The position numbers and the translations under genes are program-made. DNA of 56,130 nucleotides, from contig JAWSUE010000015.1 of NCBI GenBank assembly GCA_033549065.1, positions 1-56,130 of the forward strand. Reading direction: 5' to 3'. The first letter of the stretch is position 1; the number at the start of each line of letters is the position of its first letter. The notes beneath the pieces are model-generated. The model was given only the letters and a program-made list of their open reading frames with translations, did no database searches and was not told the origin of the DNA. Origin of the DNA: Bacillota bacterium. GTDB lineage: Bacteria; Bacillota; Dethiobacteria; DTU022. Below, piece after piece: positions 554 through 30,293 of the stretch.

Positions 554-655
554 AAATCCCGATTCGGTAGCCTGGCAGTCATGCCTTCTTAAGGTTTAGA
601 CCCATAGCTTTGCGCCGCTTCCTTTCGGAAACTTTGCCATTATCGTCAGGTTCTT
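554..655 (-). promoter_or_regulatory. c-di-GMP-I (GEMM-I) riboswitch before the prepilin gene
   Basis: Read on the minus strand, this shows the GEMM-I core: GGCAAAG, a P2 hairpin capped by GAAA, GCGCAAAGC, a P3 hairpin and the GGCTACCGA receptor segment, closed by a P1 helix. The base matching G20 of the Vc2 aptamer (the G before CAAA) is G, which favours c-di-GMP over cGAMP. Downstream, the complement of 525-537 can pair over 12 nt with the aptamer 5' strand (complement of 637-648) or form a local hairpin with the complement of 512-518. That is a plausible switch, though no U-run follows. The region 418-553 otherwise holds only this leader. Confidence 0.9.
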
Positions 656-711
656 CTTTAGACCTTATTAAGGGCTTTTCTCTTTACCCTTCATCAATAG
701 TTATACCAGGA

Positions 712-739
712 TTTATATTTTTTAGACACTTTTTGTAAA
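712..739 (-). promoter_or_regulatory. candidate promoter of the prepilin riboswitch leader
   Basis: On the minus strand TTTACA and TATAAA are spaced 16 nt apart upstream of the aptamer. The match to sigma-A is weaker than at the other riboswitch leaders here, and the predicted start lies about 50 nt before the aptamer. An alternative sigma factor may read this leader instead. Confidence 0.35.
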
Positions 740-811: not shown

Positions 812-1522
812 TTAAGCCATGTTGAGGCGCATTTCGTTTAACCCTTTATTCAGGACCCTGGAAACCTTACGCTGGTTAATCCCCAGTTTTTTTGCAGCCT
901 CTTCCTGGGTCATCCCTTCATAGTAAATCAATTTAATAACCTGCTGCTGAAGTTTATCCATTTTTTCCAGGGACATCTGGACCGTGATAGTGTCTTCTAT
1001 AGGTAATTTAAAACTTTCATAACGGATATGTTTTACCTTGGAAAGGTCCAATTCATCCAGGGCAATCACACCGGCCTGCATGGCCTCGACGATACCTTCC
1101 TCTGTAACGTTAACTTTTTGGGCTATTTCTCTTAAAGTTGGAATAGATTTATTCTTTTGAGCCAGTTCTTCGGTTGCATTGATCACCTTCGCCTGCAAAC
1201 CCTTCATCCATTCGGGCAATTTAAAGGGCCTTCTTTCCCGAAGTTCATGGCGGATTTCACCGATAATACAGTGTGATGCATAGGTAGAAAACATGATTCC
1301 GCGTTTATGATCATATCGGTTTAAAGCCTTAAGAAGTCCGAGATATCCAGCCTGCCGAAGATCTTCGTCGATCCGCCCGGGGCTGTAAAGAGCAGCAAAA
1401 TGCATCACCAGAGGTTCAGCGAAACTTACTGCCGCCTCTTTCCATTCTTCGTTACCGGTCCGCAGGTACATTTGAACTGCTGACTCCAGTTCTTCATTCT
1501 GTTTTTTTGTGCAAAGTGTCAT
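812..1522 (-). CDS. alternative RNA polymerase sigma-70 family factor linked to pilus genes
   Basis: 236 aa with the full sigma layout. Region 2 spans about residues 12-95 (DLRQAGYLGLLKAL; RGIMFSTYA; EIRHELRER). A region-3-like helical part spans about 105-160, and region 4 has a helix-turn-helix at about 190-232 (MTQEEAAKKLGINQRKVSRV). It resembles the sigma-B/F/G/FliA size class, without region 1. The ATG at 1522 has GGAGG upstream. It lies between pilB/the sigma-PilO chimera and the prepilin gene and has its own sigma-A promoter, c-di-GMP-I riboswitch and terminator, so its synthesis is very probably set by c-di-GMP. It is clearly paralogous to the N-terminal half of the neighbouring chimera. 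Its target promoters are unknown; the adjacent prepilin gene is an obvious candidate. Confidence 0.88.
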   Translation of the reverse strand: MTLCTKKQNEELESAVQMYLRTGNEEWKEAAVSFAEPLVMHFAALYSPGRIDEDLRQAGYLGLLKALNRYDHKRGIMFSTYASHCIIGEIRHELRERRPFKLPEWMKGLQAKVINATEELAQKNKSIPTLREIAQKVNVTEEGIVEAMQAGVIALDELDLSKVKHIRYESFKLPIEDTITVQMSLEKMDKLQQQVIKLIYYEGMTQEEAAKKLGINQRKVSRVLNKGLNEMRLNMA

Positions 1523-1542: not shown

Positions 1543-1575
1543 CAAATAAACCCCACCTGCTCCCGGAGGTGGGGT
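1543..1575 (-). terminator. riboswitch-associated terminator in the sigma factor leader
   Basis: Minus-strand hairpin with perfect 9-bp arms (ACCCCACCT at the 5' side, AGGTGGGGT at the 3' side) followed by TTATTTG, between the c-di-GMP aptamer and the sigma factor ribosome binding site. Its 5' arm contains CCACCT, which could also pair with AGGTGG in P2 of the aptamer. This suggests a terminator/antiterminator switch. Confidence 0.75.
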
Positions 1576-1596: not shown

Positions 1597-1693
1597 CCGA
1601 ACAGGTAACTGGCTGGCATCAGTGTTTTTAACACTTCAGCCCCTTTAGTTTTGCGTCACCACCTTTCGGTGGTTTTGCCTTTATTCAGTTCAG
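1597..1693 (-). promoter_or_regulatory. c-di-GMP-I (GEMM-I) riboswitch before the sigma factor gene
   Basis: Minus-strand core: GGCAAAACC, a P2 helix CCACC/GGTGG with GAAA tetraloop, GACGCAAAA, a P3 arm with a GTGTT/AACAC stem, then CCAGTTACC. P1 is CTGAAC with GTTCGG. The position equivalent to G20 is G and the intercalating A47 is conserved. It starts a few nt after the predicted transcription start and precedes a strong terminator. A c-di-GMP aptamer controlling a sigma factor gene is unusual. Confidence 0.9.
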
Positions 1694-1700
1694 TTATTAC

Positions 1701-1729
1701 ATTATTTCACAATTAGATCAAGAAGTCAA
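1701..1729 (-). promoter_or_regulatory. sigma-A promoter of the sigma factor riboswitch leader
   Basis: Minus strand TTGACT, 17 nt spacer, AATAAT. The start is predicted near 1694, immediately before P1 of the aptamer. The sigma gene can therefore be transcribed independently of the upstream pil operon. Confidence 0.7.
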
Positions 1730-1772: not shown

Positions 1773-2834
1773 TTACGCTTTCTGGAATTGAGTCAACGCT
1801 TCAATCATGATGCTGATCCGGGCCGGTACCTGCTCATTTCGTGTAGTCCGGACCTTTTCAATAATGACATTTTCTTCGGCATTACGTAAATGATCCAGCA
1901 GTTGAAGTAGTCCCCTATAACGCCCTTCAAGCAGAATATCAAGTGGTACTTCTACCATCTCGCCGTTCTCTTCCGGCTTACCCTTACATCTTATTTCCGA
2001 AAGGCGGAGTCCGAATTCATCCGACAGTACTTCAAAATAGCGTAACACCTCCGCCTCTTCATATTCTTCAGGGAAAGCGATCTTGAAACTGTTGATCGGT
2101 ATATGGCAGTTGCGATCCATTGCATCCAGATCACCTGTGCAATCCTCAGTCGCTCTAAGGTATTCAACCTGGCTCTTGGTGAGAGCTGACTCTTCTTCTT
2201 CAATGGCCAGACTCAGCTCTCTTAAGTTGACTGAAATTAGAGAGAGGACTTTCTTTTGAATGTTACTCAGGCGATCAATCGATTTCCGGATAGTTATAAC
2301 ATCTTCAATAGGCAGTTTGAATGATTCGCGTTTCAGGCTTCGAATCGATGAAAGGTTTACATCTTTCATCGGCACACTGCCCGCCTGCATTGTTTCCAAG
2401 ATCCCCTGCTCTGCTATATTTACCTTGCCGGCTATCTCTTTTAGTGTAGGCAATGCCGCTTTTTTTTGAGCGAGCTCTTCTGTAGCGTTAATTACATCAT
2501 CCTGTAGTTTTTTCAACCAGTCGGGGATTTTAAATATATTCCGTGATCTTAGTTCCTGCCTTATTTCGTTGATAATGCAGTGTATAGCATAAGTACTGAA
2601 GAGAACTCCACGTTCCGAATCATAATTTTTCAAAGCGAGAATAAAACCTTCATTGGCAGCCCGGATTAATTTATTATCACTTTTATCATGGCTATAAATA
2701 CCGGCATAATAGGTAGCAATATCTCGTCCGATTTTCAATAGTTTTTCTTTTGATTCCGGATTTCCCTTATCAAGATATTCCTGAACAGCAGATTCAAGAT
2801 CCGGAAGGCTGTCTTTTTTATTATCTATAGCCAT
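1773..2834 (-). CDS. sigma factor regions 2-3 fused to a PilO-like domain
   Basis: 353 aa chimera. Residues 1-201 align along their length with the neighbouring sigma factor (LESAVQ.YL, NYDSERGVLFSTYA, INATEELAQK, ESFKLPIED, then IQKKVLSLIS). The match stops exactly where the helix-turn-helix of region 4 should begin. Residues 202-353 instead match the soluble part of the PilO encoded two genes upstream: VNLRELSLAIEEEESAL against MNLNELKAEIEEEEMAL, then PEE, LRYFE.L.DE, EGR and LDHL. The PilO transmembrane helix is absent, so the protein should be cytosolic. GAGGGG lies 6 nt before the ATG. It follows pilB in the operon, 49 nt after that stop. Without region 4 it cannot bind -35 elements normally. 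It may be a regulator, decoy or scaffold; its function is unknown. Confidence 0.9.
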   Translation of the reverse strand: MAIDNKKDSLPDLESAVQEYLDKGNPESKEKLLKIGRDIATYYAGIYSHDKSDNKLIRAANEGFILALKNYDSERGVLFSTYAIHCIINEIRQELRSRNIFKIPDWLKKLQDDVINATEELAQKKAALPTLKEIAGKVNIAEQGILETMQAGSVPMKDVNLSSIRSLKRESFKLPIEDVITIRKSIDRLSNIQKKVLSLISVNLRELSLAIEEEESALTKSQVEYLRATEDCTGDLDAMDRNCHIPINSFKIAFPEEYEEAEVLRYFEVLSDEFGLRLSEIRCKGKPEENGEMVEVPLDILLEGRYRGLLQLLDHLRNAEENVIIEKVRTTRNEQVPARISIMIEALTQFQKA

Positions 2835-2883: not shown

Positions 2884-4587
2884 TTAAATAAGCACCCTGA
2901 GTGCTTCTTCCATAGATGTAATACCCGTCTTTACCTTAAGAAAACCATCCTGGCGCAGGGTAATCATTCCTTCTTTAACTGCGTCCTTGGCAATCTCGCC
3001 GGAAGAACGGTTCTGCAGTGTAAGCGCTTTGATCTCGTCGCTGACAATCAACAGCTCGTATACACCAACCCGGCCTTTATAGCCGGTCTTACTGCAGCGG
3101 AGACATCCAACAGGTTTGTAAAGGATGACTTCATTTTCACCCTGTGAGAAAGGAAAGTCAGGGACTGATGTAAGCAGTTCTTTTTTACTGATCCGATATT
3201 CTTCCCGGCACAGTTTGCATAAAACCCTGACCAGGCGCTGGGCCAGAACAGCAATCACTGATGATGCGGTAAGATATGGTTCCACATCCATTTCTGTCAG
3301 GCGGGATATTGCTCCGGCAGCATCATTGGTATGTAAAGTTGATAGAACCAGATGACCGGTCAGGGCAGATTCAACAGCAATTTTTGCCGTCTCACGGTCA
3401 CGGATCTCACCGATCATTATAATGTCCGGGTCATTACGCAGAATTGAGCGCAGCCCGGATGCAAAGGTCAAACCCGCAGCCGGATTAACGTTGACCTGGT
3501 TTATCCCGTCAAGGCGGTATTCTATCGGATCTTCCACGGTGATTATATGCTTTTCTACCTGGTTCAACTCGGCCAGGGCAGCATAAAGGGTTGTTGTTTT
3601 ACCGCTGCCGGTAGGCCCTGTAACCAGAACACAACCATGCGGCGTATTGATCATCTTTCTGAAAAGTTTCAGCTTGCTTTCCGGAAAGCCAAGTTCCGAG
3701 AGTGTAATTAACTGCGCACTGCGGTCAAGTATACGCAATGTCAGCTTCTCCCCATAGGCAGTAGGCAGAGAAGCTACCCTGAAATCGATCGTTTTACGAT
3801 CAATCCGCAGAGAAATCCTGCCGTCCTGTGGAATCCGTCGGTTGGCAATATCCATATTACCCATTACCTTTATCCTGGAAACAAGTGGTGGATATAACCG
3901 GTATGGGGGATGCATCACTTCATGTAGTACCCCGTCAATGCGGAACCTGATACGCATGCTTTTTTCCAGCGGTTCAATATGAATGTCGCTGGCTCCGTCC
4001 CGGACAGCCTGGCTGAAGATCATATTAGCCAGCTGTACAGCCGGTTTCCCGACCGATACAGCCTGCACTTCCTCGTGCAATTCCGGTTTTTCATCTTCGT
4101 ACTCATCAGCTTCAAGTGTGGTGGAAGCCCGCGCAAACTGGTCTATAGCGGCCCGTAGTTCACTTCCGGGAACACAAACCGGCTTGACCTCATACCCGGT
4201 AATCAAGCGTATATCATCAATGGCCAGAATATCGTTGGGATCAAACATGGCCACGATCAGGCGATCATTTTCAAAACCGACCGGCAGGGCACGGTAACGT
4301 CTCGCTGAATCAGGGTCAATAAGGGCGGCTGCAGCGCTGTCGATCTTATTTGTTTCCAGAGAATAATACTCGACTCCCGCCCGGGCAGCCATCGCCCTGG
4401 TGACCTGCTCCTCCGTTGTAAAACCGAGCTCAATTAATGTCTGACCCAGCAGCTTCTTTTCCCCGTTACCCTTTGCCGACTCCTGGAGTTCAAGAGCTTT
4501 CTTAAGCTGTTCACGGGTAATCGAACCACTTTCAACCAGTAAGTGGCCTATTTTTTTACCGCTGCTGCTCATTTGGCTTGTTTCCAT
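2884..4587 (-). CDS. pilB: PilB-type pilus extension ATPase
   Basis: 567 aa from the ATG at 4587; a GTG at 4596 lies inside the AGAGGTG ribosome binding site and is a poorer start. The N-terminus is a GspE/MshE-N domain (about 15-150), followed by the T2SS/T4P ATPase core with Walker A GPTGSGKTTT, the Asp/His boxes, Walker B GEIRDRETA and a C-terminal four-cysteine zinc site (CKLC ... CLRC). It powers pilus extension at the cytoplasmic face of the PilC platform. Unusually, it is the last machine gene of the operon, after pilTCMNO, and is followed by the sigma-PilO chimera. Confidence 0.95.
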   Translation of the reverse strand: METSQMSSSGKKIGHLLVESGSITREQLKKALELQESAKGNGEKKLLGQTLIELGFTTEEQVTRAMAARAGVEYYSLETNKIDSAAAALIDPDSARRYRALPVGFENDRLIVAMFDPNDILAIDDIRLITGYEVKPVCVPGSELRAAIDQFARASTTLEADEYEDEKPELHEEVQAVSVGKPAVQLANMIFSQAVRDGASDIHIEPLEKSMRIRFRIDGVLHEVMHPPYRLYPPLVSRIKVMGNMDIANRRIPQDGRISLRIDRKTIDFRVASLPTAYGEKLTLRILDRSAQLITLSELGFPESKLKLFRKMINTPHGCVLVTGPTGSGKTTTLYAALAELNQVEKHIITVEDPIEYRLDGINQVNVNPAAGLTFASGLRSILRNDPDIIMIGEIRDRETAKIAVESALTGHLVLSTLHTNDAAGAISRLTEMDVEPYLTASSVIAVLAQRLVRVLCKLCREEYRISKKELLTSVPDFPFSQGENEVILYKPVGCLRCSKTGYKGRVGVYELLIVSDEIKALTLQNRSSGEIAKDAVKEGMITLRQDGFLKVKTGITSMEEALRVLI

Positions 4588-4670
4588 CCGGGACACCTCT
4601 TAGATAAATCGACCGCACAACTTGCTCATAGGCTGAACGAGCATTGCACGGTTACATAATCTTACCTATA

Positions 4671-5213
4671 TTATATACTATAAAAGGCGTTTGCGTTAAT
4701 AACAACCCTGATGTTGGGTACCTGGCCGGATACCTGGGTAATGCGGATCGTATCTACCCGCACTGCCCGGTGGCCGAGATAAAGATGATCCAGGAATCCG
4801 ATCATGTTTTGAAAACGACCCTCAACATTAACAACCATGGGCATACGCACAAATCCCTGATCGCTATTTTCAACCCGGTTGTCAAAACGGAGATCAACCA
4901 GGTCAATATCATATTCATCAGCCAGATATTCGAAATAACGCAGAATATCTTCCTGCCCGGCTTCTTCCGGAATAAGAAGTGAATAAACCCTAAGCTGTTC
5001 ACGATATAAAGGTTCATTGGCCTTGTACTGTAATCTCCGGTTTAACAGTGCCTGAGCCTGCTGCAGCGCCATTTCTTCTTCTTCAATTTCGGCTTTTAGT
5101 TCATTTAAATTCATCACCTGCAGAACGGTCATCACAATCCCTAAGATAATAGCCAGGACAACCAGGACGATCATAATTATTTCTTTTTTCGATTGTTTGA
5201 AGTTAATCGCCAT
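4671..5213 (-). CDS. pilO: PilO-like pilus alignment protein
   Basis: 180 aa: a short cytoplasmic N-terminus, one transmembrane helix (about 11-34), a coiled coil starting NLNELKAEIEEEE, and an alpha/beta ferredoxin-like domain with LRYFEYLADE, EGR and LDHL. PilO pairs with PilN in the inner complex that links PilM/PilC to the envelope parts. The ATG at 5213 has AAGGTG upstream and overlaps the pilN end by 11 nt; a longer open frame upstream is an artefact of the overlap. Its extracytoplasmic part is the closest relative in this window of the PilO-like half of the chimera at 1773-2834. Confidence 0.88.
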   Translation of the reverse strand: MAINFKQSKKEIIMIVLVVLAIILGIVMTVLQVMNLNELKAEIEEEEMALQQAQALLNRRLQYKANEPLYREQLRVYSLLIPEEAGQEDILRYFEYLADEYDIDLVDLRFDNRVENSDQGFVRMPMVVNVEGRFQNMIGFLDHLYLGHRAVRVDTIRITQVSGQVPNIRVVINANAFYSI

Positions 5214-5805
5214 TTTCTTCACCTTCCTGATCGTCATCGTCATCGATAAATGCGGGACCGGTAAGGATCTGGCTTTCAACCTGGAACTCGACAGCATCGC
5301 TTCCGTCAAATTGGGTAGCAGAAGATAACCTTAAACGGACCTGGTCAAGCTGATCAAGTTTATATAGCTGTTCCAGCATGGACGCTACACCGCTCTGGTT
5401 ATAGGCCCAGCCGCGCATGTTCAAAATACCTGAAGTATCTGAATAATTCAGTGTAAGATCAGACAACCAGGTGCCCACCAGCAAAGTATTACTTGTATCA
5501 GTAAGCAGCTTACCCCAGGGAGGAAAAGTTCCCATGGCGTTGCTAACCAAACTCACTCTGGCATTGACCTGCTGGAAAAGATCCTCATATTCCTGTAATG
5601 CTGCTGCATCTCTCTCGACCATTTCCCTCTCTACTATTAGTGAACTGAGCTGTCTCTGGGTTAAAATATTTCTGACTAAAAAAAAGGTAAATACACAGGC
5701 CGTAATCAGCAGGACCACGAATAAGATCAGAAATATTTTCCTCAGCTTTAGCTGGGCAATTTTTCTTGCTTTTATTTCAGGGGGCAGTAAGCTTACATAT
5801 TCCAC
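5203..5805 (-). CDS. pilN: PilN-like pilus assembly membrane protein
   Basis: 200 aa. It starts MEYVSLLPPEIKARK, a variant of the short PilN N-terminal motif that docks into PilM. A transmembrane helix (about 25-47), a coiled coil and a PilN/GspL-like domain with LSDLTLNYSDTSGILNMRG follow. The C-terminus is very acidic (DDDDDQEGEE). It lies 2 nt after pilM and overlaps pilO, consistent with a co-translated PilMNO module. Confidence 0.92.
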   Translation of the reverse strand: MEYVSLLPPEIKARKIAQLKLRKIFLILFVVLLITACVFTFFLVRNILTQRQLSSLIVEREMVERDAAALQEYEDLFQQVNARVSLVSNAMGTFPPWGKLLTDTSNTLLVGTWLSDLTLNYSDTSGILNMRGWAYNQSGVASMLEQLYKLDQLDQVRLRLSSATQFDGSDAVEFQVESQILTGPAFIDDDDDQEGEENGD

Positions 5806-5807
5806 TA

Positions 5808-6827
5808 TTATCCCTCCAGACCCCGGGATGCCAATCCGGCACTTAGTGTATATTCAACCACATCAAGATCATTTTTTGCCATCCGGCGTTTGGCAGGGTT
5901 AAATTCTTCAAGAGGATTAAAAATCCTGACCGGCAAATTAATATTATTTTCCAGGTAAGCGGCGATACCTTTAAGCATTGCGCCCTTCCCGCTGAGCAGT
6001 ACACCTTCCACCTGTGAAGCATCAGGTTGATCCTGATAATAGGTTATGGAAGAGCGAATTTCTCCGGCCAAACTGTTCGTCCAGTCAATTACTACATCTG
6101 ATGCACCGGTTTTTGCCAAAGTTTCACTATTAAAAACATCACTTAAAGAACTGTCAAGCTTTTCCGCAAGATCTATAATCTTGGTCATCCCCAAACGAGC
6201 CAAACGTGGTTTGCCCTGATCGGAAATAAGAATACTGTTAAGCCCGTTTGCTACATTAACCATAGCAATAGTCATTGCTTGAGCTTTTTCAGGCAGTAAA
6301 CCGATCTGCGTCATACTTGAAACATCGATGTCCAGGGGTTCAAGGTTGGCCAGTTCGAGCGCTTCCAGAAACTTGTTTAACATATCTCTACGGGCGGCAA
6401 CCAACAGTACTTCCAACGCCGGCTGTGCTTCCTCGGAAGTAATTGTTTCTCCCAAAACCAAGTAATCTAAAACAACATTATTCAGGGGTATAGGCAAGTG
6501 CTCTTCTGCCTGAAATTGCACTACATTCCTCAATTTATCCTTCGGTACTTTCGGAATAGTGATATTGCGGACTAAAACCCCCTGGTTGGATACCCCAAGA
6601 ATTACACCCCGCTCTTTAATTCCCCTCGAAGCCCATAACTCTTTAAGTGCTGATCCCACCTGTGCCGGCTCAATAACAAGGCCTTCCCGGACAGCTTCAT
6701 TCGGAAGATCGATACTGCCGATGTTGGTAAGCTTTGCCGATTTCGGTTTGCCAACCAGTTCGACAATACGGGCTGAACCGGAATCTATTTCCAGACCAAT
6801 TGCTCTTTTAGCGCTGCTTAGTTCCAT
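5808..6827 (-). CDS. pilM: PilM-like actin-fold pilus assembly ATPase
   Basis: 339 aa with the FtsA/PilM actin-like fold: GLEIDSGSARIVEL at the N-terminus as phosphate-1 loop, LRNVVQFQAEEHLPIP, and VLLSGKGAMLKGI near residue 275. It is cytoplasmic, binds the PilN N-terminal peptide and forms the ring between the ATPases and the membrane proteins. It is followed by pilN after 2 nt. Confidence 0.95.
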   Translation of the reverse strand: MELSSAKRAIGLEIDSGSARIVELVGKPKSAKLTNIGSIDLPNEAVREGLVIEPAQVGSALKELWASRGIKERGVILGVSNQGVLVRNITIPKVPKDKLRNVVQFQAEEHLPIPLNNVVLDYLVLGETITSEEAQPALEVLLVAARRDMLNKFLEALELANLEPLDIDVSSMTQIGLLPEKAQAMTIAMVNVANGLNSILISDQGKPRLARLGMTKIIDLAEKLDSSLSDVFNSETLAKTGASDVVIDWTNSLAGEIRSSITYYQDQPDASQVEGVLLSGKGAMLKGIAAYLENNINLPVRIFNPLEEFNPAKRRMAKNDLDVVEYTLSAGLASRGLEG

Positions 6828-6845
6828 AAATGAGCACTCCCAATA

Positions 6846-8051
6846 TTATGATATTTGGGTAATAGCGGTAAATATTGGCAGGTAGAGCGCAATAAGCATA
6901 CCCCCAACTACAATACCGATTACGATTAACATCAACGGTTCGATTAAAGATGTAAGACCTTTGGTCATGGTAGCTACCTCTTCTTCGAAAAACTCGGCTA
7001 CTTTATCCATCATTTCCGGTATATCGCCGGTTTCTTCACCCACTGCGATCATATGAGTTACCATGGGAGGGAAGACCCCACTTTCCTCAAGGGGATCGGC
7101 AATATTGCTGCCTTCATGAATTCTTTCCCCTGCCCTTTCAGTCGCCTCGATGATCATCGTGTGACCGGTAGCCTGGCCGGATGCATCGAGTGCCTGGACA
7201 ACCGGTATTCCGGTGGCAATCATCGTAGAAAATGTCCGTGAAAAGTTAGCAATTAATGTTTTCTGAACCAATTGTCCAAAAATCGGTAGGTTAAACTTAA
7301 TCCTGTCAAGTTTCTTCTTGCCCCTTTCACTGCGGGCATAAGCACGGGAAATTAGTATTATCAAAACTATTATTGGAAGCATAATATACCAATAGTTTGT
7401 CAGTAAATCTGAAAGCCCGATAATTATTCGTGTCGGTAAAGGTAAAACGACATCATCGGGGAAAAAACCGATGAAGATAGGAACAAGGAAAAACAGCATT
7501 CCGAACAATATAACTACGGCAAACGCTAGCACTGCTGCGGGATAGAACATCGCCGATTTTATATTATCCCTTAATTCTTTTTCCTTTTGAAGCTGGTGAG
7601 CAAGCCTGGTGAGTGATTTTTCCAGAGATCCTCCAGCTTCACCGGCGCTGATCATATTCACATAAAGCGTAGAAAATATTTTTGGATGTGCTTTAAGTGC
7701 ATCGCTGAAGCTCACTCCACCCTCAACATTGCGGGCAATATCATTGATCGCTACACTAAGCGTAGAATTGGTAACCTGCTTACTTAATGTAAACAGTGCC
7801 CTGGTCAGGGGAATTCCTGAATCGAGCATGGCTGCCATCTGGCGGCTGAACAGGCTGAGATCACCTAGCTTAACCTTGGAAGATATTTTGAAAGATCCAA
7901 AAAGGGAGGATTGCTTGATCTCCTTTATATCCATAGCCATCAAGCCCATCCCGCGCAGCCGGTTGGCTACCGCATCCTGAGCATCGGCTTCAATCTTACC
8001 GGTGACTACATCTCCGGTTTTATTGATCGCTTCATACTGAAAGGATCCCAT
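6846..8051 (-). CDS. pilC: PilC-type inner-membrane platform protein
   Basis: 401 aa from the ATG at 8051 (a TTG one codon upstream is less likely). It shows the two repeated GspF domains, each with the FSRQMAAMLDSGIPL or FSRTFSTMIATGIPV signature, and about three membrane segments (near 175-195, 215-235 and 375-395). It is the platform on which PilB and PilT act. It lies between pilT and pilM in the pilus operon. Confidence 0.95.
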   Translation of the reverse strand: MGSFQYEAINKTGDVVTGKIEADAQDAVANRLRGMGLMAMDIKEIKQSSLFGSFKISSKVKLGDLSLFSRQMAAMLDSGIPLTRALFTLSKQVTNSTLSVAINDIARNVEGGVSFSDALKAHPKIFSTLYVNMISAGEAGGSLEKSLTRLAHQLQKEKELRDNIKSAMFYPAAVLAFAVVILFGMLFFLVPIFIGFFPDDVVLPLPTRIIIGLSDLLTNYWYIMLPIIVLIILISRAYARSERGKKKLDRIKFNLPIFGQLVQKTLIANFSRTFSTMIATGIPVVQALDASGQATGHTMIIEATERAGERIHEGSNIADPLEESGVFPPMVTHMIAVGEETGDIPEMMDKVAEFFEEEVATMTKGLTSLIEPLMLIVIGIVVGGMLIALYLPIFTAITQIS

Positions 8052-8089
8052 CAATCATTCATCTCCCTGGATATTAAGCAGCGTTCTTT

Positions 8090-9184
8090 CTATTTACTAT
8101 ATACCTTATGCTGCAGCAGCCGTTCAACTTCTGTATGATCAATACATTTTTCGAGCGCTTCATGCCTGGTAATTTTACCTTTAAGACAAAGATCCGCCAG
8201 TGAATGGTCCATTGTTCTCATTCCACTGGCATAACTGGCCTGCATAACCGAGTAAAGCTGATGCTCTTTACCTTCCCGGATCATACTGCGCACTGCTGCG
8301 CTGTTCTTTAAAAATTCCATGGCCAAAACTCTGCCGTCACCGGCAACATTTGGTATCAACTGCTGTGAAAGGACTGCCTGCAGGGAACTGCTTAACTGCT
8401 GGCGCACCTGGTCCCGCTGGTGTTCGGCAAAGGCATCAACAATCCTGTTTACGGTCAGCGGCGCGGTCTGAGTATGTAATGTCGAAAAAACCAGGTGTCC
8501 GGTTTCTGCTGCGGTCAGTGCTATGCCGATGCTCTCCAGGTCGCGCATCTCACCGATCAGGATCACATCAGGGTCATGACGCAGCATATGTCTCAGTGCT
8601 ATTGGAAATGATTTTGTGTCAAATCCAACTTCCCGCTGTTTGACCGATGATTTCTTGTGTGAATGTAAAAATTCGATCGGGTCCTCAACCGTTATTATAT
8701 TTAAATGTCGTTCTTCGTTGATAATATTGATCATTGCCGCCAGGGTTGTCGATTTTCCGCTTCCGGTTGGTCCGGTAACCAGAACCAATCCACGAGGCAG
8801 GAAACATAACTCCCTTACTCCCGGCAGTACGCCCAAATCTTCGATCCGTGGTATTTCGATGGGCACAATTCTCAATGCAATCGATAGTGATCCCCGCTGG
8901 AACATTGCATTACCTCTGAAACGGGCAAAATGCGGGATCGAATATGAAAAATCAAGTTCCAGATCATTTTTTAAGGCTTCGATCTGGTGCGGCTTTACTA
9001 TCTGGGTCAGCAGTTCCTTTAAATTATCCGGTTTCAAGACAGGCATATCCATCCGGGTCATCTCCCGGTTGATCCGGAAAATCGGGGGATCACCCGGTGC
9101 AAAATGAATGTCCGAAGCCTTCATTTCACTGGCCCTTTTTAATATTTCGAGCATACTTATCGGATAACTACTATTATTACTCAT
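8090..9184 (-). CDS. pilT: PilT-type pilus retraction ATPase
   Basis: 364 aa. It has an N-terminal PAS-like domain (ASDIHFAPGDPP), Walker A GPTGSGKSTT, Asp box VEDPIE, Walker B GEMRD, His box STLHT and a C-terminal AVRSMIRE motif equivalent to AIRNLIRE, which is diagnostic of PilT retraction motors as opposed to PilB. It drives pilus retraction, hence twitching or DNA uptake. It overlaps no neighbour; the gap to the secretin-like gene is 33 nt. Confidence 0.95.
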   Translation of the reverse strand: MSNNSSYPISMLEILKRASEMKASDIHFAPGDPPIFRINREMTRMDMPVLKPDNLKELLTQIVKPHQIEALKNDLELDFSYSIPHFARFRGNAMFQRGSLSIALRIVPIEIPRIEDLGVLPGVRELCFLPRGLVLVTGPTGSGKSTTLAAMINIINEERHLNIITVEDPIEFLHSHKKSSVKQREVGFDTKSFPIALRHMLRHDPDVILIGEMRDLESIGIALTAAETGHLVFSTLHTQTAPLTVNRIVDAFAEHQRDQVRQQLSSSLQAVLSQQLIPNVAGDGRVLAMEFLKNSAAVRSMIREGKEHQLYSVMQASYASGMRTMDHSLADLCLKGKITRHEALEKCIDHTEVERLLQHKVYSK

Positions 9185-9217
9185 TTATATTATCTCCACT
9201 ACTATCTTTAATATCAT

Positions 9218-10633
9218 TTACTCCTCTTCCTCTTCTTCCTCCTCAATAATGCTAAAAACTGCTGTAAAATTACGGTTTGAGTTTATTGTAAAAGTATAAG
9301 AACTGCTCTCCGATACTAATAACCCACCTTCGAGCCAACGCTCAAACTGAAAACCTTCAGCCGGCGCAGCTGTAATGGTAACAGACGTCCCCTGTATATA
9401 AGATCCTGATCCGGTTGTTGTCCCTCCCAAAGGAGGATTTGGAGCGATAGAAACCGTGAAGTATTCTGGTTCAACTGTTGGAGGTGGGACATACTGAACA
9501 TTTTCACTGCTTTCTCTATTATCCCTGGTAAAAGTAAATGGTGAAGATGGGGTACTAGAAATTGCCGAGATCATCTGATTGACCAGCTCAATATTGGCCG
9601 GAGAACCTTCGGCAATCAGGTAGCGCACCTGATTGTCATAGTCTGCAGCAAAATCACGGGTTATTTTCATCATAATATCGTAAGGTTTGATTATTGGGTT
9701 TTCCCAATCCATGTAAATATATGGGATAGGATCGGGATGATCCCAGGTTACCCAACCCATATCAGTCCGGCCATCCCTGAAACCATCAAGTAAAATACTT
9801 AATAAATCTATCAGTGCTTCAAGTTCTTCTTCTGCCCTTGAACCTGTTGCAATAGCAACGGGCATCCTGATTTTCCGGGCTCCGCCTTCGGCAAAGGCTG
9901 CATTATCCATGATATCGAGTGCATTGATCAACTCACGTGCTTTACACAAGGCCATAGGCGTCCCCTGCATCCAGATGGAATGCTGGTTTGAGTCCACAGT
10001 TAAACTCTGCACTGAAACTCCAAGATCTGAGAGATATCCTTCCATCGCCGAAGCGGATACATAAAATAAATTAAATTTAGTCAGAAGCATCCGGGTGGCA
10101 AAATCGCTGTAAAGCCTGCTCTGCTGACCTACAATATAATTTTTGCCTACGGTTAAATAATCCAGACCTTCTTTTTGTAGAATAAGCTGGAATGTTGTTA
10201 TCGGTGAGAGGTTTCGCGTTTTGATCGTGATAGTCCTTGGCTCTTCGAGGTAAATTATGTTGACATCAAGTTTGTAGGCGAGCAATGAGAGCACATCTAA
10301 GAGGTTTGCATCACGTATATCAAGTGATATAGTTGACGAACTGGAATGAGCTGGGCGAGGTGCTTTAATGCTTTCAGATACATCTGCCCAAAGTTGATCT
10401 GATAAAACAGCTGAATCACCATCTGATGCATCTAAGGAAGCGTTAAAAGCATTGTTATTCGTTCCGGCAAGCTGCGGATTATCTTGAATGGGCAGTACGG
10501 CATCTTCAAGAAACGCGGGCTCGGCTAAAGAACAGTTTATTGTAATCGCCGCTGCCAGCAGCAGCCCGAGGGCGGCAAAGAGTATATACCGGTTAACTGT
10601 ATATTGGGATGCCTTATTTCTTTTACTTCTCAT
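9218..10633 (-). CDS. secretin-like protein without pore, with InlB-type repeat and poly-Glu tail
   Basis: 471 aa. A signal peptide or anchor (about 16-37) is followed by a STN/N0-like domain (about 101-170) and a secretin N1-like domain (about 180-242). These are the periplasmic ring modules of PilQ/GspD. The region that should form the secretin beta-barrel is absent. Instead residues 391-462 form a divergent InlB B-type/Flg_new repeat (GTSVTITAAPAEGFQFERW ... FTAVF), and the protein ends in eight Glu. The ATG overlaps the stop of the PilP-like gene (ATGA). The loss of the pore fits a monoderm envelope; the repeat may bind peptidoglycan or the S-layer. That role is inference. Confidence 0.75.
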   Translation of the reverse strand: MRSKRNKASQYTVNRYILFAALGLLLAAAITINCSLAEPAFLEDAVLPIQDNPQLAGTNNNAFNASLDASDGDSAVLSDQLWADVSESIKAPRPAHSSSSTISLDIRDANLLDVLSLLAYKLDVNIIYLEEPRTITIKTRNLSPITTFQLILQKEGLDYLTVGKNYIVGQQSRLYSDFATRMLLTKFNLFYVSASAMEGYLSDLGVSVQSLTVDSNQHSIWMQGTPMALCKARELINALDIMDNAAFAEGGARKIRMPVAIATGSRAEEELEALIDLLSILLDGFRDGRTDMGWVTWDHPDPIPYIYMDWENPIIKPYDIMMKITRDFAADYDNQVRYLIAEGSPANIELVNQMISAISSTPSSPFTFTRDNRESSENVQYVPPPTVEPEYFTVSIAPNPPLGGTTTGSGSYIQGTSVTITAAPAEGFQFERWLEGGLLVSESSSYTFTINSNRNFTAVFSIIEEEEEEEE

Positions 10634-11199
10634 GATGCATCCTCCTCATCTTCAACAGTTGGTTCGTAGAGGCCACTTATGCTTCTAGTTTCCGGAGGCT
10701 GTCCCAGATAAAGCGCCACTTCCTGACTGTGTGCTCTCAGAATTACCGAATTTCCGGTTATCTCGTTAACTGCCCATAGATCGTCAACATAATCACCGAC
10801 AGAGACTATGTAGGAAGTACCGCCTGATTCGATAATGGCCATCGCTCCACCACGGCCCCCTAATGCCGTACCGGTCAACTTCATCGGGTCAGCAAAGGGA
10901 TCGCTTATTGGTACAGCCGGTTTCCAGGCTGAGTTTTCGTCGCTGTAAGTATCATTGCTGCGGATCTGCTGGGGGAGGACTTCTGCGATATCGGCAACCT
11001 CAGGCAGTGCTGACTGTTGACTGTTATCTTCAGGAGAAGCTGCTGCTTTATCACGAAGTAGAATAAGGCTGTATACTCCACCCACTATGAGAAGAAATAA
11101 AAGAATACCTATTAAAAGATAAATAGGTTGTTGCTTAAACTTTTCGAGTATATGGGGAAAATTAAAATTCAAAACTCTTTCTCGTTCTCCCTGTTTCAT
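10630..11199 (-). CDS. PilP/GspC-like pilus assembly protein
   Basis: 189 aa: a cytoplasmic N-terminus, one transmembrane helix (about 26-48), a low-complexity linker, then DPFADPMKLTGTALGG and a small beta domain (GDYVDDLWAVNEITGNSVIL) typical of PilP/GspC homology regions that contact the secretin. It overlaps the secretin-like gene by 4 nt, matching the PilP-PilQ pairing of diderms. The start has AGAGGTG upstream. It is first in the pilP-like to pilB operon, behind a strong promoter. Confidence 0.7.
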   Translation of the reverse strand: MKQGERERVLNFNFPHILEKFKQQPIYLLIGILLFLLIVGGVYSLILLRDKAAASPEDNSQQSALPEVADIAEVLPQQIRSNDTYSDENSAWKPAVPISDPFADPMKLTGTALGGRGGAMAIIESGGTSYIVSVGDYVDDLWAVNEITGNSVILRAHSQEVALYLGQPPETRSISGLYEPTVEDEEDAS

Positions 11200-11572: not shown

Positions 11573-12190
11573 TTAATCCCTGATAGACTTTAAATACTTG
11601 ATGGTAGTTCCACCTTCGCCATTAAGTTTTATCATAGATTCATTTGGTCCGTAAGCCCTGTATAGCTCAAGATTAAGCGCCTGTACCCTGGTCATTAATA
11701 AATATAGCCCATCAACTTCTTCAACATTGATATTATCCAGATCCTCGACTGCAATAATCGAGTCCATATCAACATCAGCGCCAGTTAAAAAGATTACCAC
11801 ATCATCCGGTACATTACTGGTGAAATATATGCTATAAAGCATGTCGTCTGCTAAACTATCAGCCATAATCCTCTCATTTTCGTTTTGATCACGATAAATG
11901 ATCGAATTATCTTCTGAAAGATAAAAATACCAATATCCATTAACCATTTCTGCTTCATCAGGATTGATCTCAATCTCTTTGGCAAACCGGAGTTCTGAAG
12001 TGATAAAATCCGAAGTTATTCTCGCTGCCTGTTGAGCAATCGCCCGGCGTTCTCCGATATTAAAAGCTTGAGTGCCAAAGTTAAAAAACATATATCCAAG
12101 TGCCAGCACAACTCCCAGTAGAGCAAGAGCAATTAATAACTCTACCAGCATAAAACCATTTTGATTATTGCTTGCTACTCTTTTAACCAT
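11573..12190 (-). CDS. minor prepilin, PilW/PulJ-like
   Basis: 205 aa. The prepilin motif NG|FMLVELL has cleavage after Gly12, Glu17 at +5 and a hydrophobic helix to about residue 37. The rest is a globular pilin head without cysteines. It overlaps the end of the propeller-bearing prepilin by 16 nt, which indicates translational coupling. It belongs to the minor pilin operon controlled by the riboswitch at 15257-15351. Minor pilins prime assembly and sit at the pilus tip. Confidence 0.85.
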   Translation of the reverse strand: MVKRVASNNQNGFMLVELLIALALLGVVLALGYMFFNFGTQAFNIGERRAIAQQAARITSDFITSELRFAKEIEINPDEAEMVNGYWYFYLSEDNSIIYRDQNENERIMADSLADDMLYSIYFTSNVPDDVVIFLTGADVDMDSIIAVEDLDNINVEEVDGLYLLMTRVQALNLELYRAYGPNESMIKLNGEGGTTIKYLKSIRD

Positions 12191-13902
12191 TTTGGCGCAA
12201 CTCCTGAAATATTACTGGTAATGCCATGTCCGGTTAATAAATACCACTTCGAAATGTCACTTCCTGTACCTCTTATGATAGTCCCGTTATCGCCGACAAT
12301 AATAAAGTGAATGGTCGTGTCTACAACCTCATTTTCACCCTCGCCTGTCGTTGTTGTTACATACCCGTAGTCAATGGCTCTTAAATTTGCTGTGATCGGG
12401 CTCTCAGAATTAGTGTCAGGATTGATGGGGGTATGGGATTCCCAAGTTTGCCCATCATCAATTGAAGTAATAATAGTTCCTCCATTCCCCACAGCAATTA
12501 ATATATTATTAATACCTAAAGTTTCATCCGATTCCGATACTGAAATTACATCATTCAACTGCTGATTAAGATTACTCTCAACTATTGTTACATAGTCCCA
12601 ATCATTCAATGAACTATTATAAATAACAGCATCCCCTGATTTTTCTCCTACAGCAATCCAATCTGAACCATGATATGCAGCGCCGTGAAGATTCACCCCA
12701 GTAGGGTCTGCAATATCTTCTGTTACCCAGTCAATACCGTTTGAAGAGCTGAAAAATGCTCCATCAGTCCCAACTGTAATGAATTCATTTGCATTGTTAT
12801 CCCATTCTACGGCTTTTAAGCTCAGGCCGTCAGCTGTAATAACCACTTCACTGCTCCAATCAGTTGCATTTGTAGAGGTAACAATAAAGCCGTCATCACC
12901 AACCGCAACAAGTCTACCTCCACCATAAACAACCGAGTTCAAATTCCCATATCCGGATGTTCCGGATATAAACCTTGGAGCTTCACGTTCTCTCCAAATC
13001 CCAATTTTACCACTGCTGCTGGATCCGATAAACACGTATTCAAATCCGGTCCAGGTGGCACCTCTGAGTTCACCTGCACCGGTCATTTTATTTCTGAATT
13101 TCCATGTTTCAATAATATCGCTTGAAATTAATAGATCCTGTCCAGAACTCACTGCAAGAGCTTCTGGTAAGTCAACATACAATCGAGTACTTATTGTATA
13201 TGTTATCGTTGTTTCCGCTGATTCTTCATCCCAGGCCAAGCTAATAATATGAGGAGTATCATTTGTTTTGAGTCCTGGAGGTAATTGAAACGAAAAATCA
13301 GCACCACTTTCCCCAATCAGAATGTTGTCTTCGGCTAATATTTTAGTTACAAAAAAATTATTTTTATCATATATATAGATGCCATCTATTTCGGATATTG
13401 CAATACCTTCTAAATCGTCTTTCCCATGGATTGTAATCAATATATCCATACCATTTGCGTCTAAATTGCTCCGATACCCCTCAACTATAAGCGATGGTTC
13501 AATCTGCATCCAGGGTATATATGGAACAAAACCGCTTAACCATGCGCTGGCCTCTTTAACTGATTTTTCAACATCTGCATAATCACCTTTTACTGAAATA
13601 GTTGTGGAATTTCCTTCATCGTCTTCAAAAATAAATTCTAATGCTTCACCTGCCCATAATATCAGCGGATCTTTCTCAGCAATTGCTACTTCTATTTCAG
13701 ATTGACTTTCATACAAAGCCTCACTTTTGTCACCGGCATATTGGATACGTTCTATACTTCCTACCAGCAAGGGCGTAAAAGCAAAAACTATCATTGTTAA
13801 GATAACAATGGCAATTAGTATCTCAACCAGGGTAAATCCATATTCAGCTTTACAGGCAGCTTTAACTTGATTGAAAATCTTTTTTCGAAATAACTGACCC
13901 AT
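12175..13902 (-). CDS. prepilin fused to a C-terminal beta-propeller
   Basis: 575 aa. The N-terminal prepilin signal is G22|FTLVEILIAIVIL with Glu27 at +5. Residues about 50-275 are a mixed beta region. Residues about 278-570 carry repeated blades of the form FVAVGDDG.I.TS....W (LVAVGDDGFIVTST, FITVGTDGAFFSSS, LIAVGNGGTIITS, FIIVGDNGTIIRG), as in BNR/YCF48-type propellers. At more than three times the usual pilin length, this is probably a tip protein displaying the propeller outside the cell as an adhesin or sensor. That placement is inferred from minor pilin biology. AT-rich third positions match its neighbours. Confidence 0.85.
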   Translation of the reverse strand: MGQLFRKKIFNQVKAACKAEYGFTLVEILIAIVILTMIVFAFTPLLVGSIERIQYAGDKSEALYESQSEIEVAIAEKDPLILWAGEALEFIFEDDEGNSTTISVKGDYADVEKSVKEASAWLSGFVPYIPWMQIEPSLIVEGYRSNLDANGMDILITIHGKDDLEGIAISEIDGIYIYDKNNFFVTKILAEDNILIGESGADFSFQLPPGLKTNDTPHIISLAWDEESAETTITYTISTRLYVDLPEALAVSSGQDLLISSDIIETWKFRNKMTGAGELRGATWTGFEYVFIGSSSSGKIGIWREREAPRFISGTSGYGNLNSVVYGGGRLVAVGDDGFIVTSTNATDWSSEVVITADGLSLKAVEWDNNANEFITVGTDGAFFSSSNGIDWVTEDIADPTGVNLHGAAYHGSDWIAVGEKSGDAVIYNSSLNDWDYVTIVESNLNQQLNDVISVSESDETLGINNILIAVGNGGTIITSIDDGQTWESHTPINPDTNSESPITANLRAIDYGYVTTTTGEGENEVVDTTIHFIIVGDNGTIIRGTGSDISKWYLLTGHGITSNISGVAPKWLKE

Positions 13903-15256: not shown

Positions 15257-15351
15257 TACCTGCTTCGGCAGCCAGGCTGCGTCAGCTTTTGACTGAGCGT
15301 CCCCGGCTTTGCGCCCCTGCCAAACGCAGAGTTGCCTTTGTCGGTCAGGTA
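15257..15351 (-). promoter_or_regulatory. c-di-GMP-I (GEMM-I) riboswitch before the minor pilin operon
   Basis: Minus-strand core: GACCGACAAAGGCAA, a P2 stem CTCTGC/GCAGGG with a TTT(G)-type loop replacing the usual GAAA tetraloop, GGCGCAAAGCC, a P3 arm (CAGTCAAAAGCTG), then GGCTGCCGA. P1 is TACCTG/CAGGTA. The missing GNRA cap means the tetraloop-receptor contact may be weakened. The G20 and A47 equivalents are conserved. Confidence 0.85.
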
Positions 15352-22995: not shown

Positions 22996-24978
22996 TTATT
23001 GCTCAGATATTTTTCCTTTTTTCTTTCTGGGGCGTCCATCGTCGTCTTCACGCATGTACCTCACTATTTTGACCAACTCGTAAATGATAATCAGGGCGCC
23101 CGGGACGAATATCAGCAGGATCAGTCCTTCCCTGGTCTGGACAAAATCCAGAAGATAACCGATATAGGGCACAGTATAAACCACCCTGCCAACAACATTT
23201 GCCGAAGGAACAGGGTTGGGATCGTTTGCGGGGTTGGCATCTCCGCGGGTAATATAGCTGTATCCGCCCTGGGTGCGTACTTCCACTACCCGGTGGGTTA
23301 CCAGTGAATCGGGGTTAACCGGACTGTGATAGGTGATTATGTCATTGGAAAAAATCTCCTGGGGTGGGGTTTCACGGACAAAGGCCAGGCTCCCCTTGTA
23401 AAATTCTGGGTTCATGCTGTCACTCATCACTATATACATTTCGTGTCCCGCTATCTGCGGGGCTCCTCCTGATATTCTGCTCTGAATCAGGAAGAATGAT
23501 AGTGTAGCCATCATCAGGAGAAGCAGGATAAAGATCAGGTTGCCAAAGATGGATAAAATTCTGGTTACTCCCCTCTTCGGGGCGCCTTTAACTTTTGTCG
23601 GTTTTTTTATCTTGTGAGGAACCGGTTCTTCGAGCACTTCTTCCGGTGGAGCAAATTGATCCAGTAAGGGTTTATTTATATCTTCATCGATGTGCAGATC
23701 TTCTTTGAGAATATCTTCCCCGAATAGAAAATCATCGGCCGATTTGCCAGGCAGGGATGATTGAATTTTTATTTCAGGCTGCTCTGCCTGTGGGACAAAT
23801 GGTTTTTCTTCCTTTAGTTCTTTATCGCCGAAAAGATCGTCAAAATACTGCTCTCCCTCTGTTTCATAATCAAATACCGGTTTATATTCTATATCCGGTG
23901 ATCCGGCATCGGGCAGCACTTTTTCGGAGCTTCCTTTTGCAGCCTTCCCATACGGCGTATCGACCATTTTTTCTCTGAATGATTCAAGAACTGAACTGTC
24001 CGGCTCCAGATCATCAACAGATTTACCGTTATCAAAAGTTGAGGCAAAAGCGCTGTTCTTGATCGGTGGCTTCGTGCCGAAAACATTATCGAATTCACTG
24101 GTGGCTGAACTGGCCGGTTCTTCAGGAGGGCTATCGTCAAACAGGCCGAAATTGAGATCTTCCTCTTTGACCGGCTCCTGAACCATTTCACCAACTGGTT
24201 CATCTTCACCCAGAAACTCTGTAGCCTTTTGTTCGCGAATCATATCCTCCGCGGTTTGTTCCTTATCTGGCACATCATCTGTTTCTCCGGTAAATGCCGG
24301 CTTGTATAGATCATCGAAGCCTGCTGTATCCAACTGTTCAAGTTCTTCTTCAAATTCAATCTCTTCAATCTCTATAACTTCCTCAATGTCTTCTCCGGCT
24401 TCTTCCTCTTTTACGGGCTCGTCAATTCCCCTGATAATTTCAGGTTCTTCTGTTTCTGCATAGTCCTGCAACTCTTCGATTTCAAGCTCCTTTTCTGCCT
24501 GGTCACTATCAGCTATAATTTCCTCAATATCGTGTCCGTAATAGTCTATCTTCTCGTATTTTTCCTCTTCTTCAAAATTTGAGTAGGGTGCCGAGATATC
24601 TACACCTGTTGATTTTTTCTTTTCCAAAATATGAACCCTGGCAATAAAGTCTTCCTTGCGGATCGGTTTAACCAGGTAGTCATCGATGGCATCTTTTTCA
24701 ATTACAGAAAATAGAGCATCAAAATGATCAGGTTCGATAAAGGCCAGAATATGGGCTCCATGGCTTTTAATTCTGAGGGTGCTTAACAGTTCAGCAGGAT
24801 CTTCATCAACCAGATCAAAATCAATTATAATCACATCCGGTTCTACTTTTCCCGCTAACTTACGAAGGGTATCAACGGAGAAGCAGCTTACAATATCTGC
24901 ATCGCTGGTTGTTTTCTCTAGCATTTTTTGAAGTTCAGCAGATGAGACAAAATTCTGATCTACCAGTAAAAGATACAT
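22996..24978 (-). CDS. receiver domain - acidic linker - type I signal peptidase fusion
   Basis: 660 aa. Residues 1-122 are a receiver-like domain: MYLLLVDQNF, IIDFD (Asp53/55) and YLVKP (Lys104). The usual acidic pair is reduced to one Asp and the Thr/Ser switch position is Ala. A Glu/Asp-rich disordered linker runs to about residue 470. A membrane helix (about 488-508) follows, then a SipW/ER-type S26B signal peptidase domain with SDSM (catalytic Ser521), THRV (His562) and RGDANP (Asp580), and a second helix (about 615-635) with a basic tail. GGGGGG lies before the ATG. It is downstream of the secreted transglutaminase. I know of no described protein with this layout. It may process a dedicated set of exported proteins under regulatory control. 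Confidence 0.85.
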   Translation of the reverse strand: MYLLLVDQNFVSSAELQKMLEKTTSDADIVSCFSVDTLRKLAGKVEPDVIIIDFDLVDEDPAELLSTLRIKSHGAHILAFIEPDHFDALFSVIEKDAIDDYLVKPIRKEDFIARVHILEKKKSTGVDISAPYSNFEEEEKYEKIDYYGHDIEEIIADSDQAEKELEIEELQDYAETEEPEIIRGIDEPVKEEEAGEDIEEVIEIEEIEFEEELEQLDTAGFDDLYKPAFTGETDDVPDKEQTAEDMIREQKATEFLGEDEPVGEMVQEPVKEEDLNFGLFDDSPPEEPASSATSEFDNVFGTKPPIKNSAFASTFDNGKSVDDLEPDSSVLESFREKMVDTPYGKAAKGSSEKVLPDAGSPDIEYKPVFDYETEGEQYFDDLFGDKELKEEKPFVPQAEQPEIKIQSSLPGKSADDFLFGEDILKEDLHIDEDINKPLLDQFAPPEEVLEEPVPHKIKKPTKVKGAPKRGVTRILSIFGNLIFILLLLMMATLSFFLIQSRISGGAPQIAGHEMYIVMSDSMNPEFYKGSLAFVRETPPQEIFSNDIITYHSPVNPDSLVTHRVVEVRTQGGYSYITRGDANPANDPNPVPSANVVGRVVYTVPYIGYLLDFVQTREGLILLIFVPGALIIIYELVKIVRYMREDDDGRPRKKKGKISEQ

Positions 24979-26381: not shown

Positions 26382-26490
26382 AAAAAACCGGTTTCGGTAG
26401 CCAGGCTGTCTTAGCTCATTTACGAGCCTTAGACCCTTTTGCTTTGCGTCGCAGTCTTTCGACTGGTTTGCCATTGTCGGTCAGGTTTTT
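26382..26490 (-). promoter_or_regulatory. c-di-GMP-I (GEMM-I) riboswitch before the transglutaminase gene
   Basis: Textbook GEMM-I on the minus strand: GACCGACAATGGCAAACC, a P2 stem CAGTC/GACTG with GAAA cap, GACGCAAAGC, GGGTCTAAGGCTC, a P3 stem GCTC/GAGC, then GCCTGGCTACCGA. P1 is AAAAACC/GGTTTTT. The G20 equivalent is G. I see no convincing sigma-A promoter immediately upstream (26491-26613). Confidence 0.93.
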
Positions 26491-28144: not shown

Positions 28145-28246
28145 ATACCTGCTTCGGCTGGCCAGGCTATCATAGCTCCTCGGAGCGTTAGACCCTTTGG
28201 CTTTGCGCCCCTGCTTTTCAACAGGTTTGCCTTATCGGTCAGGTAT
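28145..28246 (-). promoter_or_regulatory. c-di-GMP-I (GEMM-I) riboswitch before the receiver-anchor gene
   Basis: Minus-strand core: GACCGATAAGGCAAACC, a P2 stem CCTG(T)/GCAGG with a GAAA-containing loop, GGCGCAAAGCC, GGGTCTAACGCTCC, a P3 stem GCTCC/GGAGC, then GCCTGGCCAGCCGA. P1 is ATACCTG/CAGGTAT. Only about 44 nt separate it from the TTG start, with no terminator seen, so control is probably at translation initiation. Confidence 0.92.
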
Positions 28247-30178: not shown

Positions 30179-30293
30179 GATTATCCTCAAGAATCCTTAA
30201 TAAATATACGGATATACCAACTATCGTATTAATCAGTATACTTTACCAATTATGGTTTGTCCATGCCTATATTGGAATTTTTTGCAGATAGTT

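Follow-up and report, generated by a model that had tools for sequence, protein, structure and literature searches.

The window, by which is meant the whole 56,130-nucleotide stretch of DNA that was analysed, carries a pilus locus in which the gene next to pilB encodes a chimera of a sigma factor and the pilus alignment protein PilO. This chimera is named FUS below, and the intact sigma factor of the pilus locus is named sigma-Pil. The features of the locus are collected in Table 1. The usual order in the genomes carrying FUS is pilP-Q-T-C-M-N-O-B-FUS-sigma-pilA, and three genomes (G003, G009 and G031) hold FUS outside the pil locus. The G031 genome, which is 97% complete, contains FUS with no cognate pilB, pilO or sigma-Pil detected, and holds only a divergent second pilus-like locus. 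No sigma-Pil was found in G003 and G009, both of which are less complete MAGs. An anti-sigma gene could not be recognised among the neighbours in the pil locus. Other families of the class (L096-L109) display an intact SigF-like sigma gene between pilC and pilM within the pil operon. The intact pilus sigma is older than FUS, and a dedicated sigma inside the pil operon appears to be widespread in this Bacillota class; no paper on sigma factors within pil operons was found in the literature searched.

Some further proteins encoded on the reverse strand of the window were noted. The PilQ-like protein (9218-10633) displays a Secretin_N match, no match to the secretin pore and an InlB-repeat tail, and the product of 12175-13902 has a prepilin-type N-terminus as well as a stretch that is YCF48-like (beta-propeller). 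An N-terminal response-regulator receiver is found in the product of 22996-24978, whose C-terminus is signal-peptidase-like by eye only (Pfam reports the receiver alone), and 28931-30190 encodes a regulator of the BTAD type whose C-terminus partially matches GGDEF. Among the relatives, MORN-repeat proteins recur beside pilB (L044 5459-6820, L096 13483-14409 and L097 14063-15244), the gene of L044 being located behind its own c-di-GMP riboswitch.

Table 1. Features of the FUS locus, with positions in the window and the evidence for each assignment.
Feature	Position	Strand	Evidence
pilA, major pilin, cut off by the contig end	1..420	-	N-terminal prepilin motif, BLAST orthologues
c-di-GMP-I riboswitch before pilA	563..648	-	Rfam RF01051, 80.7 bits
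pilA promoter GTGTCTAA-N14-GGTATAAC, SigF/SigB type, probable sigma-Pil target	700..729	-	
sigma-Pil, intact pilus-locus sigma with region 4	812..1522	-	Pfam r2, r3, r4 above cut-offs
Terminator-like hairpin between riboswitch and sigma-Pil start	1551..1574	-	fold
c-di-GMP-I riboswitch before sigma-Pil	1601..1689	-	Rfam RF01051, 72.3 bits
sigma-A type promoter TTGACT-N17-AATAAT before the sigma-Pil riboswitch	1701..1729	-	read from sequence
FUS, sigma-PilO chimera, 353 aa	1773..2834	-	homology to both halves, 11 further full-length orthologues
FUS residues 203-353, soluble PilO domain (coiled coil and ferredoxin-like core)	1776..2228	-	hhalign, Foldseek
FUS residues 183-222, junction: region 4 first helix into PilO coiled coil	2169..2288	-	conservation, predicted helices
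FUS residues 1-202, sigma regions 1.2-3.2 and first helix of region 4	2229..2834	-	identity to sigma-Pil, TIGR02980, Foldseek
FUS residues 169-178, region 3.2 linker RESFKLPIED	2301..2330	-	predicted disordered, conserved
FUS residues 54-71, region 2.2 without its signature (core RNAP contact)	2622..2675	-	conservation comparison
pilB, directly upstream of FUS	2884..4596	-	
pilO, cognate PilO with membrane helix	4671..5213	-	Pfam PilO 25 bits, above cut-off
pilN, pilM, pilC, pilT, pilQ-like, pilP	5203..11199	-	gene order conserved in relatives; PilM_2 match
Further c-di-GMP-I riboswitches	15264-15346, 26393-26482, 28153-28241	-	

The N-terminal part of FUS is a sigma factor through regions 2 and 3, as the first-pass annotation had read it: residues 1-200 are 49% identical to sigma-Pil (E 4e-69) and the best NCBIfam match of this half is SigBFG TIGR02980 (E 3.8e-19). 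The Pfam Sigma70_r2 model is matched in 10 of the 12 full-length FUS proteins identified, with a homology that includes the -10/melting segment 2.3-2.4. Region 4, which binds the -35 element and the flap, is absent with the exception of its first helix (183-200); this helix is retained and continues into the PilO coiled coil, the homology to PilO starting at residue 203. A change from sigma to PilO near region 4 had been correctly noticed, but it had been placed exactly at the first helix of that region and is located after it, at about 200-203. The idea that residues 203-222 might conceal a helix-turn-helix of region 4 was considered and rejected, as the MAFFT fit to region 4 is loose, the PilO match is far better in this segment and the model displays a straight helix. 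The junction (183-222) is the most conserved segment of FUS, with a pairwise identity of 0.73.

The C-terminal part matches the extracytoplasmic domain of PilO. Residues 250-346 are 32% identical to the product of the neighbouring pilO (E 3e-15), and a profile of residues 203-353 from the 12 FUS proteins aligns in hhalign with the PilO profile of the same family over 153 columns (99.8%, E 9.7e-30) and with PilO of other families (99.2%, E 6.2e-20). Pfam PilO gives 21.4 bits on the FUS of the window, slightly below the 22-bit cut-off, and is matched at E<=0.01 by 6 of the 12 orthologues. The 'EIEEEE' coil, listed earlier as part of the likeness, is included in the homology, which is not confined to the folded core: coiled coil and ferredoxin-like core are common to FUS and PilO (PF04350, type IVa pilus alignment protein) over all 151 residues. 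The lack of a membrane helix was confirmed as well, the maximal 19-residue hydropathy being 0.6-1.2 in the 12 FUS proteins versus 3.4 in PilO; both the short cytosolic tail and the membrane helix of the PilO type are missing according to sequence and hydropathy. No match to a receiver domain (Pfam Response_reg) was found in FUS. The sigma-PilO chimera is real, and the soluble part of PilO is present in full in its residues 203-353.

Structure predictions are in agreement with this architecture. The AlphaFold model obtained with the 12 orthologues has a pLDDT of 70.8, and an input of 57 rows, made of FUS orthologues, intact sigmas and PilOs, yields a pLDDT of 82. In the latter model the values are mostly 85-97 in sigma2 and 85-98 in the PilO core, drop below 50 at residues 167-176 and accompany two predicted helices at the junction (176-187 and 191-217). 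The pTM is low (0.40) because the relative placement of the sigma and PilO parts is free. A single Foldseek query with the FUS model retrieves both sigma factors, including S. aureus SigB (8x6g) and WhiG (6pfv), and solved PilO: 2rjz and 5uvr, which are P. aeruginosa PilO, and 3jc8_Oa, from the type IVa machine model 3jc8. The rmsd of the PilO domain to 2rjz is 2.9-3.2.

Full-length FUS is present in 12 of 43 genomes of the same family, distributed over six genera (g1, g2, g12, g13, g15 and g17), so that the architecture does occur in relatives; the other 11 proteins are 50-63% identical to that of the window. In the contig search, a single FUS protein used as query matched no others, and an alignment used as query matched 11. 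FUS was found neither among 55 other genomes of the class nor among about 390 genomes of the phylum, about 440 genomes outside the family in all. The named carriers are MAGs labelled 'Syntrophomonadaceae' or 'Bacillota bacterium', and their isolate names, which include CSSed and T1Sed, suggest soda-lake sediments. In the sigma tree, the sigma halves group in a single clade (100/99) next to the family's intact sigmas, and the PilO halves form one clade (100/100) in the PilO tree. One clade for each half implies a single origin, which fits one event of duplication and fusion. Sequence, trees and conservation show such an origin, once: a duplicated copy of sigma-Pil lost region 4 and was fused with the soluble domain of PilO, likewise from a duplicate. 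Among close pairs, dN/dS amounts to 0.10-0.17 over the whole of FUS, 0.03-0.08 in the sigma half and 0.19-0.38 in the PilO half; FUS is maintained by selection.

Five c-di-GMP-I riboswitches occur within the window, all on the reverse strand, and 10 in the whole genome. FUS has its own riboswitch directly upstream in 7 of 12 genomes; in four others (the window, G029, G012 and G040) the riboswitch lies 3' of FUS and before the sigma gene, and none was found for the FUS of G035. Promoters of the sigma-A type, with a TTGAC-type -35, also precede the riboswitches of sigma and FUS in relatives. Unlike the sigma-A promoters of the FUS and sigma units, the pilA promoters read GTGTCTAAAA...GGTATAAC. 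The motif GTGTCTAA-N14-GGTATAAC was matched 9 times in 43 genomes, versus 0 for the reversed control, and the matches that were checked lie in front of genes for prepilins, secreted proteins or PilT-like proteins, in most cases separated from them by a riboswitch; the match in G003 precedes a prepilin gene, and an intervening riboswitch was not established there. The motif is present in 5 of the 10 genomes with sigma-Pil, some of which contain fragments only, versus 3 of the 33 without it (p=0.010), all of these genomes being related. It is likely, judging from these sequences, that sigma-Pil reads the SigF/SigB-type motif of pilA, the link being a correlation among related genomes. The motif is likewise a likely handle on the regulon of the pilus sigma. 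In a further relative (L045, G007:C158), a broken sigma-Pil remnant with an internal stop lies upstream of an intact pilA that has both riboswitch and promoter motif.

The sigma half was compared with the intact sigmas. Sites were called fixed when conserved at 80% or more among 27 intact sigmas; 11 of 57 such sites are changed in FUS, and 6 of the 11 fall in region 2.2, which holds 10 fixed sites (p=0.0019). Pairwise identity in this region is 0.52 in FUS versus 0.76 in intact sigmas. Region 2.2 is the main contact of sigma factors with core RNA polymerase. At position 58, Gln is shared by all 27 intact sigmas and by none of the 12 FUS, which mostly have Lys or Arg there; this Gln lies in the contact with the beta-prime clamp helices. 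Joo et al. reportedly observed in 1997 that sigma-32 binds core less tightly after one substitution in region 2.2, at the place of this Gln. The Gly at position 60 is Ala in 12/12 FUS, and Asp55 (mostly lost), Leu64, Lys66 and Arg70 are altered too. Two intact-fixed sites in region 2.4, G89 and H93, are changed as well. Pairwise identity within FUS nevertheless amounts to 0.71 in regions 2.3-2.4 and 0.65 in region 3, versus 0.73 and 0.68 within the intact sigmas of the family. Consensus conservation of the region 3.2 linker is 0.87, compared to 0.41-0.49 in other disordered stretches. This linker works inside RNA polymerase, and its conservation is therefore a hint that FUS may still enter the enzyme. 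The PilO half has invariant residues of its own, found in FUS only: R307, P337-A338-R339, E268, V269 and G275.

In summary of the sigma surface, the core-binding part of FUS is degenerate, the DNA-binding part mostly kept and region 3.2 kept. The explanation that we prefer, tentatively and without going so far as to call it probable, is that FUS is a sigma mimic which tunes the circuit of pilus sigma and c-di-GMP, following a logic similar to that of PhyR, rather than a promoter-specific sigma. FUS would be located in the cytosol because it has no membrane helix, and would be produced where sigma-A transcription meets the decision of a c-di-GMP riboswitch, in most genomes together with the pilus genes and sigma-Pil. 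It would not act as a promoter-specific sigma because it has no domain binding the -35 element and the flap and has lost the core-gripping residues of region 2.2. Elsewhere (2.3-2.4, 3.0-3.1 and 3.2) the sigma surface is kept under strong selection. FUS may occupy something that sigma-Pil uses or is held by, be it an anti-sigma, a partner protein or promoter DNA. FUS would thereby tune sigma-Pil-dependent expression, for example that of pilA, the PilO-like domain with its invariant residues being the putative pairing or control module. We infer the mimicry, the partner and the direction of the effect; overall confidence in the mechanism is moderate. The main point against a pure mimic is the conserved region 3.2 linker; the lack of a recognised anti-sigma gene at the locus and the presence of FUS without detectable sigma-Pil in G031, and in the less complete G003 and G009, also speak against it, as does the merely correlative link, among related genomes, between sigma-Pil and the pilA promoter.

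Fused or reshaped sigma proteins are already known, and three of them bear comparison with FUS. The alphaproteobacterial PhyR carries a sigma-like domain whose core and promoter regions are degenerate and titrates an anti-sigma (PMC8103513). It shares with FUS the sigma-like N-terminal half, the degenerate core-binding parts, the C-terminal control domain and the location beside the mimicked sigma (PMC8103513); it differs in being ECF-like, in having a receiver domain and in acting on a known anti-sigma, NepR, of which no counterpart was recognised at the FUS locus. In ECF41 and other sigmas that bear a fused regulatory domain at the C-terminus, a single polypeptide likewise holds both parts (PMC3426412); ECF41 is an active sigma with an extension added at that end, whereas region 4 is replaced in FUS. 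The two-subunit sigma SigO-RsoA of B. subtilis likewise has sigma2 on a protein without sigma4 (PMC8103513); the partner sigma of FUS is complete, however, and the FUS protein with sigma2-3 carries a pilus domain. With respect to its own parents, FUS shares regions 1.2-3.2 and the first helix of region 4 with the SigB/SigF/SigG-type sigma-70 factors (group 3, to which FliA/WhiG also belong), and departs from them by the missing region 4, the lost region 2.2 signature and the added PilO-like domain. It departs from PilO by the absence of the N-terminal cytosolic tail and membrane helix, by its FUS-only invariant residues, by the fusion behind a sigma and by a gene that is kept outside the pil loci in three genomes.

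One alternative to mimicry is a working, unusual sigma, which would still enter RNA polymerase by way of sigma2, sigma3 and the 3.2 finger and open promoters at the -10 element only, the PilO domain taking the place of region 4 as a dimer or a partner-binding part. In its favour, conservation in regions 2.3-2.4, in region 3 and in the disordered 3.2 linker comes close to that of intact sigmas, and the dN/dS of the sigma half is low. We nevertheless consider such a sigma unlikely, given the loss of the region 2.2 signature in 12/12 proteins, with mostly Lys or Arg at the Gln of position 58, and the changes of G89 and H93 in region 2.4.

The first-pass annotation had proposed an assembly checkpoint, in which the cytosolic PilO domain would sense pilus parts, here PilN, PilM or PilB, and pass the assembly state to transcription, a single chain holding both the sensor and the sigma part. 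The FliA-FlgM checkpoint would be its functional analogue, although FlgM is a separate, secreted anti-sigma and FUS displays no feature of secretion or of an anti-sigma. The gene order pilM-N-O-B-FUS-sigma-pilA in most carriers and the true PilO homology of the domain are in line with this idea. In type IVa pili, however, the ferredoxin-like domains of PilO and PilN meet outside the membrane, where the natural partner domain of PilO lies, and FUS has no membrane helix. The residues of the PilO half have moreover shifted to a FUS-specific set, the FUS of G031 has no cognate pilB, pilO or pilus sigma, and the FUS gene is found away from the pil locus in three genomes. Direct reporting to RNA polymerase is doubtful because the region 2.2 signature is lost in 12/12. 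The checkpoint idea is thus weakened, and we rate it as rather improbable; a possible variant, in which FUS would act on the intact paralogous sigma, is close to the preferred mimic.

A position of FUS outside transcription altogether, in which it would serve in the cytosol as an adaptor for the pilus or for a different surface machine under c-di-GMP control, would agree with the disappearance of both the core-binding signature and region 4, with a gene that comes after pilB and with the FUS genes found behind their own c-di-GMP riboswitch outside pil loci. The conservation pattern of regions 2.3-3.2 tracks that of intact sigmas, and speaks against an adaptor, which we judge improbable; so is the reuse of the sigma domains as a protein-binding module that it would involve. 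As a paralogue of sigma-Pil without region 4, encoded in the same locus, FUS might also be a competitive antagonist taking core RNA polymerase from sigma-Pil. Strong core binding would be needed for this purpose and region 2.2 is the most clearly lost constraint; the competitor is placed low, as very improbable, because the core-binding part is precisely what decayed. An assembly error, a frameshift or a decaying pseudogene might be suspected because the window lies where a contig starts and the draft genome consists of 61 contigs, but is ruled out with practically no residual doubt by the dN/dS values and the 11 further orthologues, which bring to 12 the intact full-length copies in separate MAGs, under purifying selection and in single clades.

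No description of a sigma-PilO protein was found in the literature searched, an absence that is weak evidence. The wider reading is that a sigma factor was made into a new class of cytosolic regulator, its -35-binding domain being swapped for a pilus scaffold domain and the PilO fold being reused for signalling or pairing, so that the state of a surface machine or of c-di-GMP would be fed into the pilus sigma. We regard this as possible, with more reservation than conviction. If true, FUS would be the first sigma-pilus chimera, and we know of no earlier sigma mimic of this kind in Bacillota. A conserved paralogue in which a pilus scaffold domain has been exchanged for promoter recognition would be an example of a sigma factor converted into a regulator through the replacement of a domain, and it suggests that the PilO fold is able to work away from the membrane. 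FUS makes it testable whether the loss of region 2.2 turns a sigma into a mimic, and offers a handle on the wiring of c-di-GMP, sigma factor and pilus in uncultured Bacillota.
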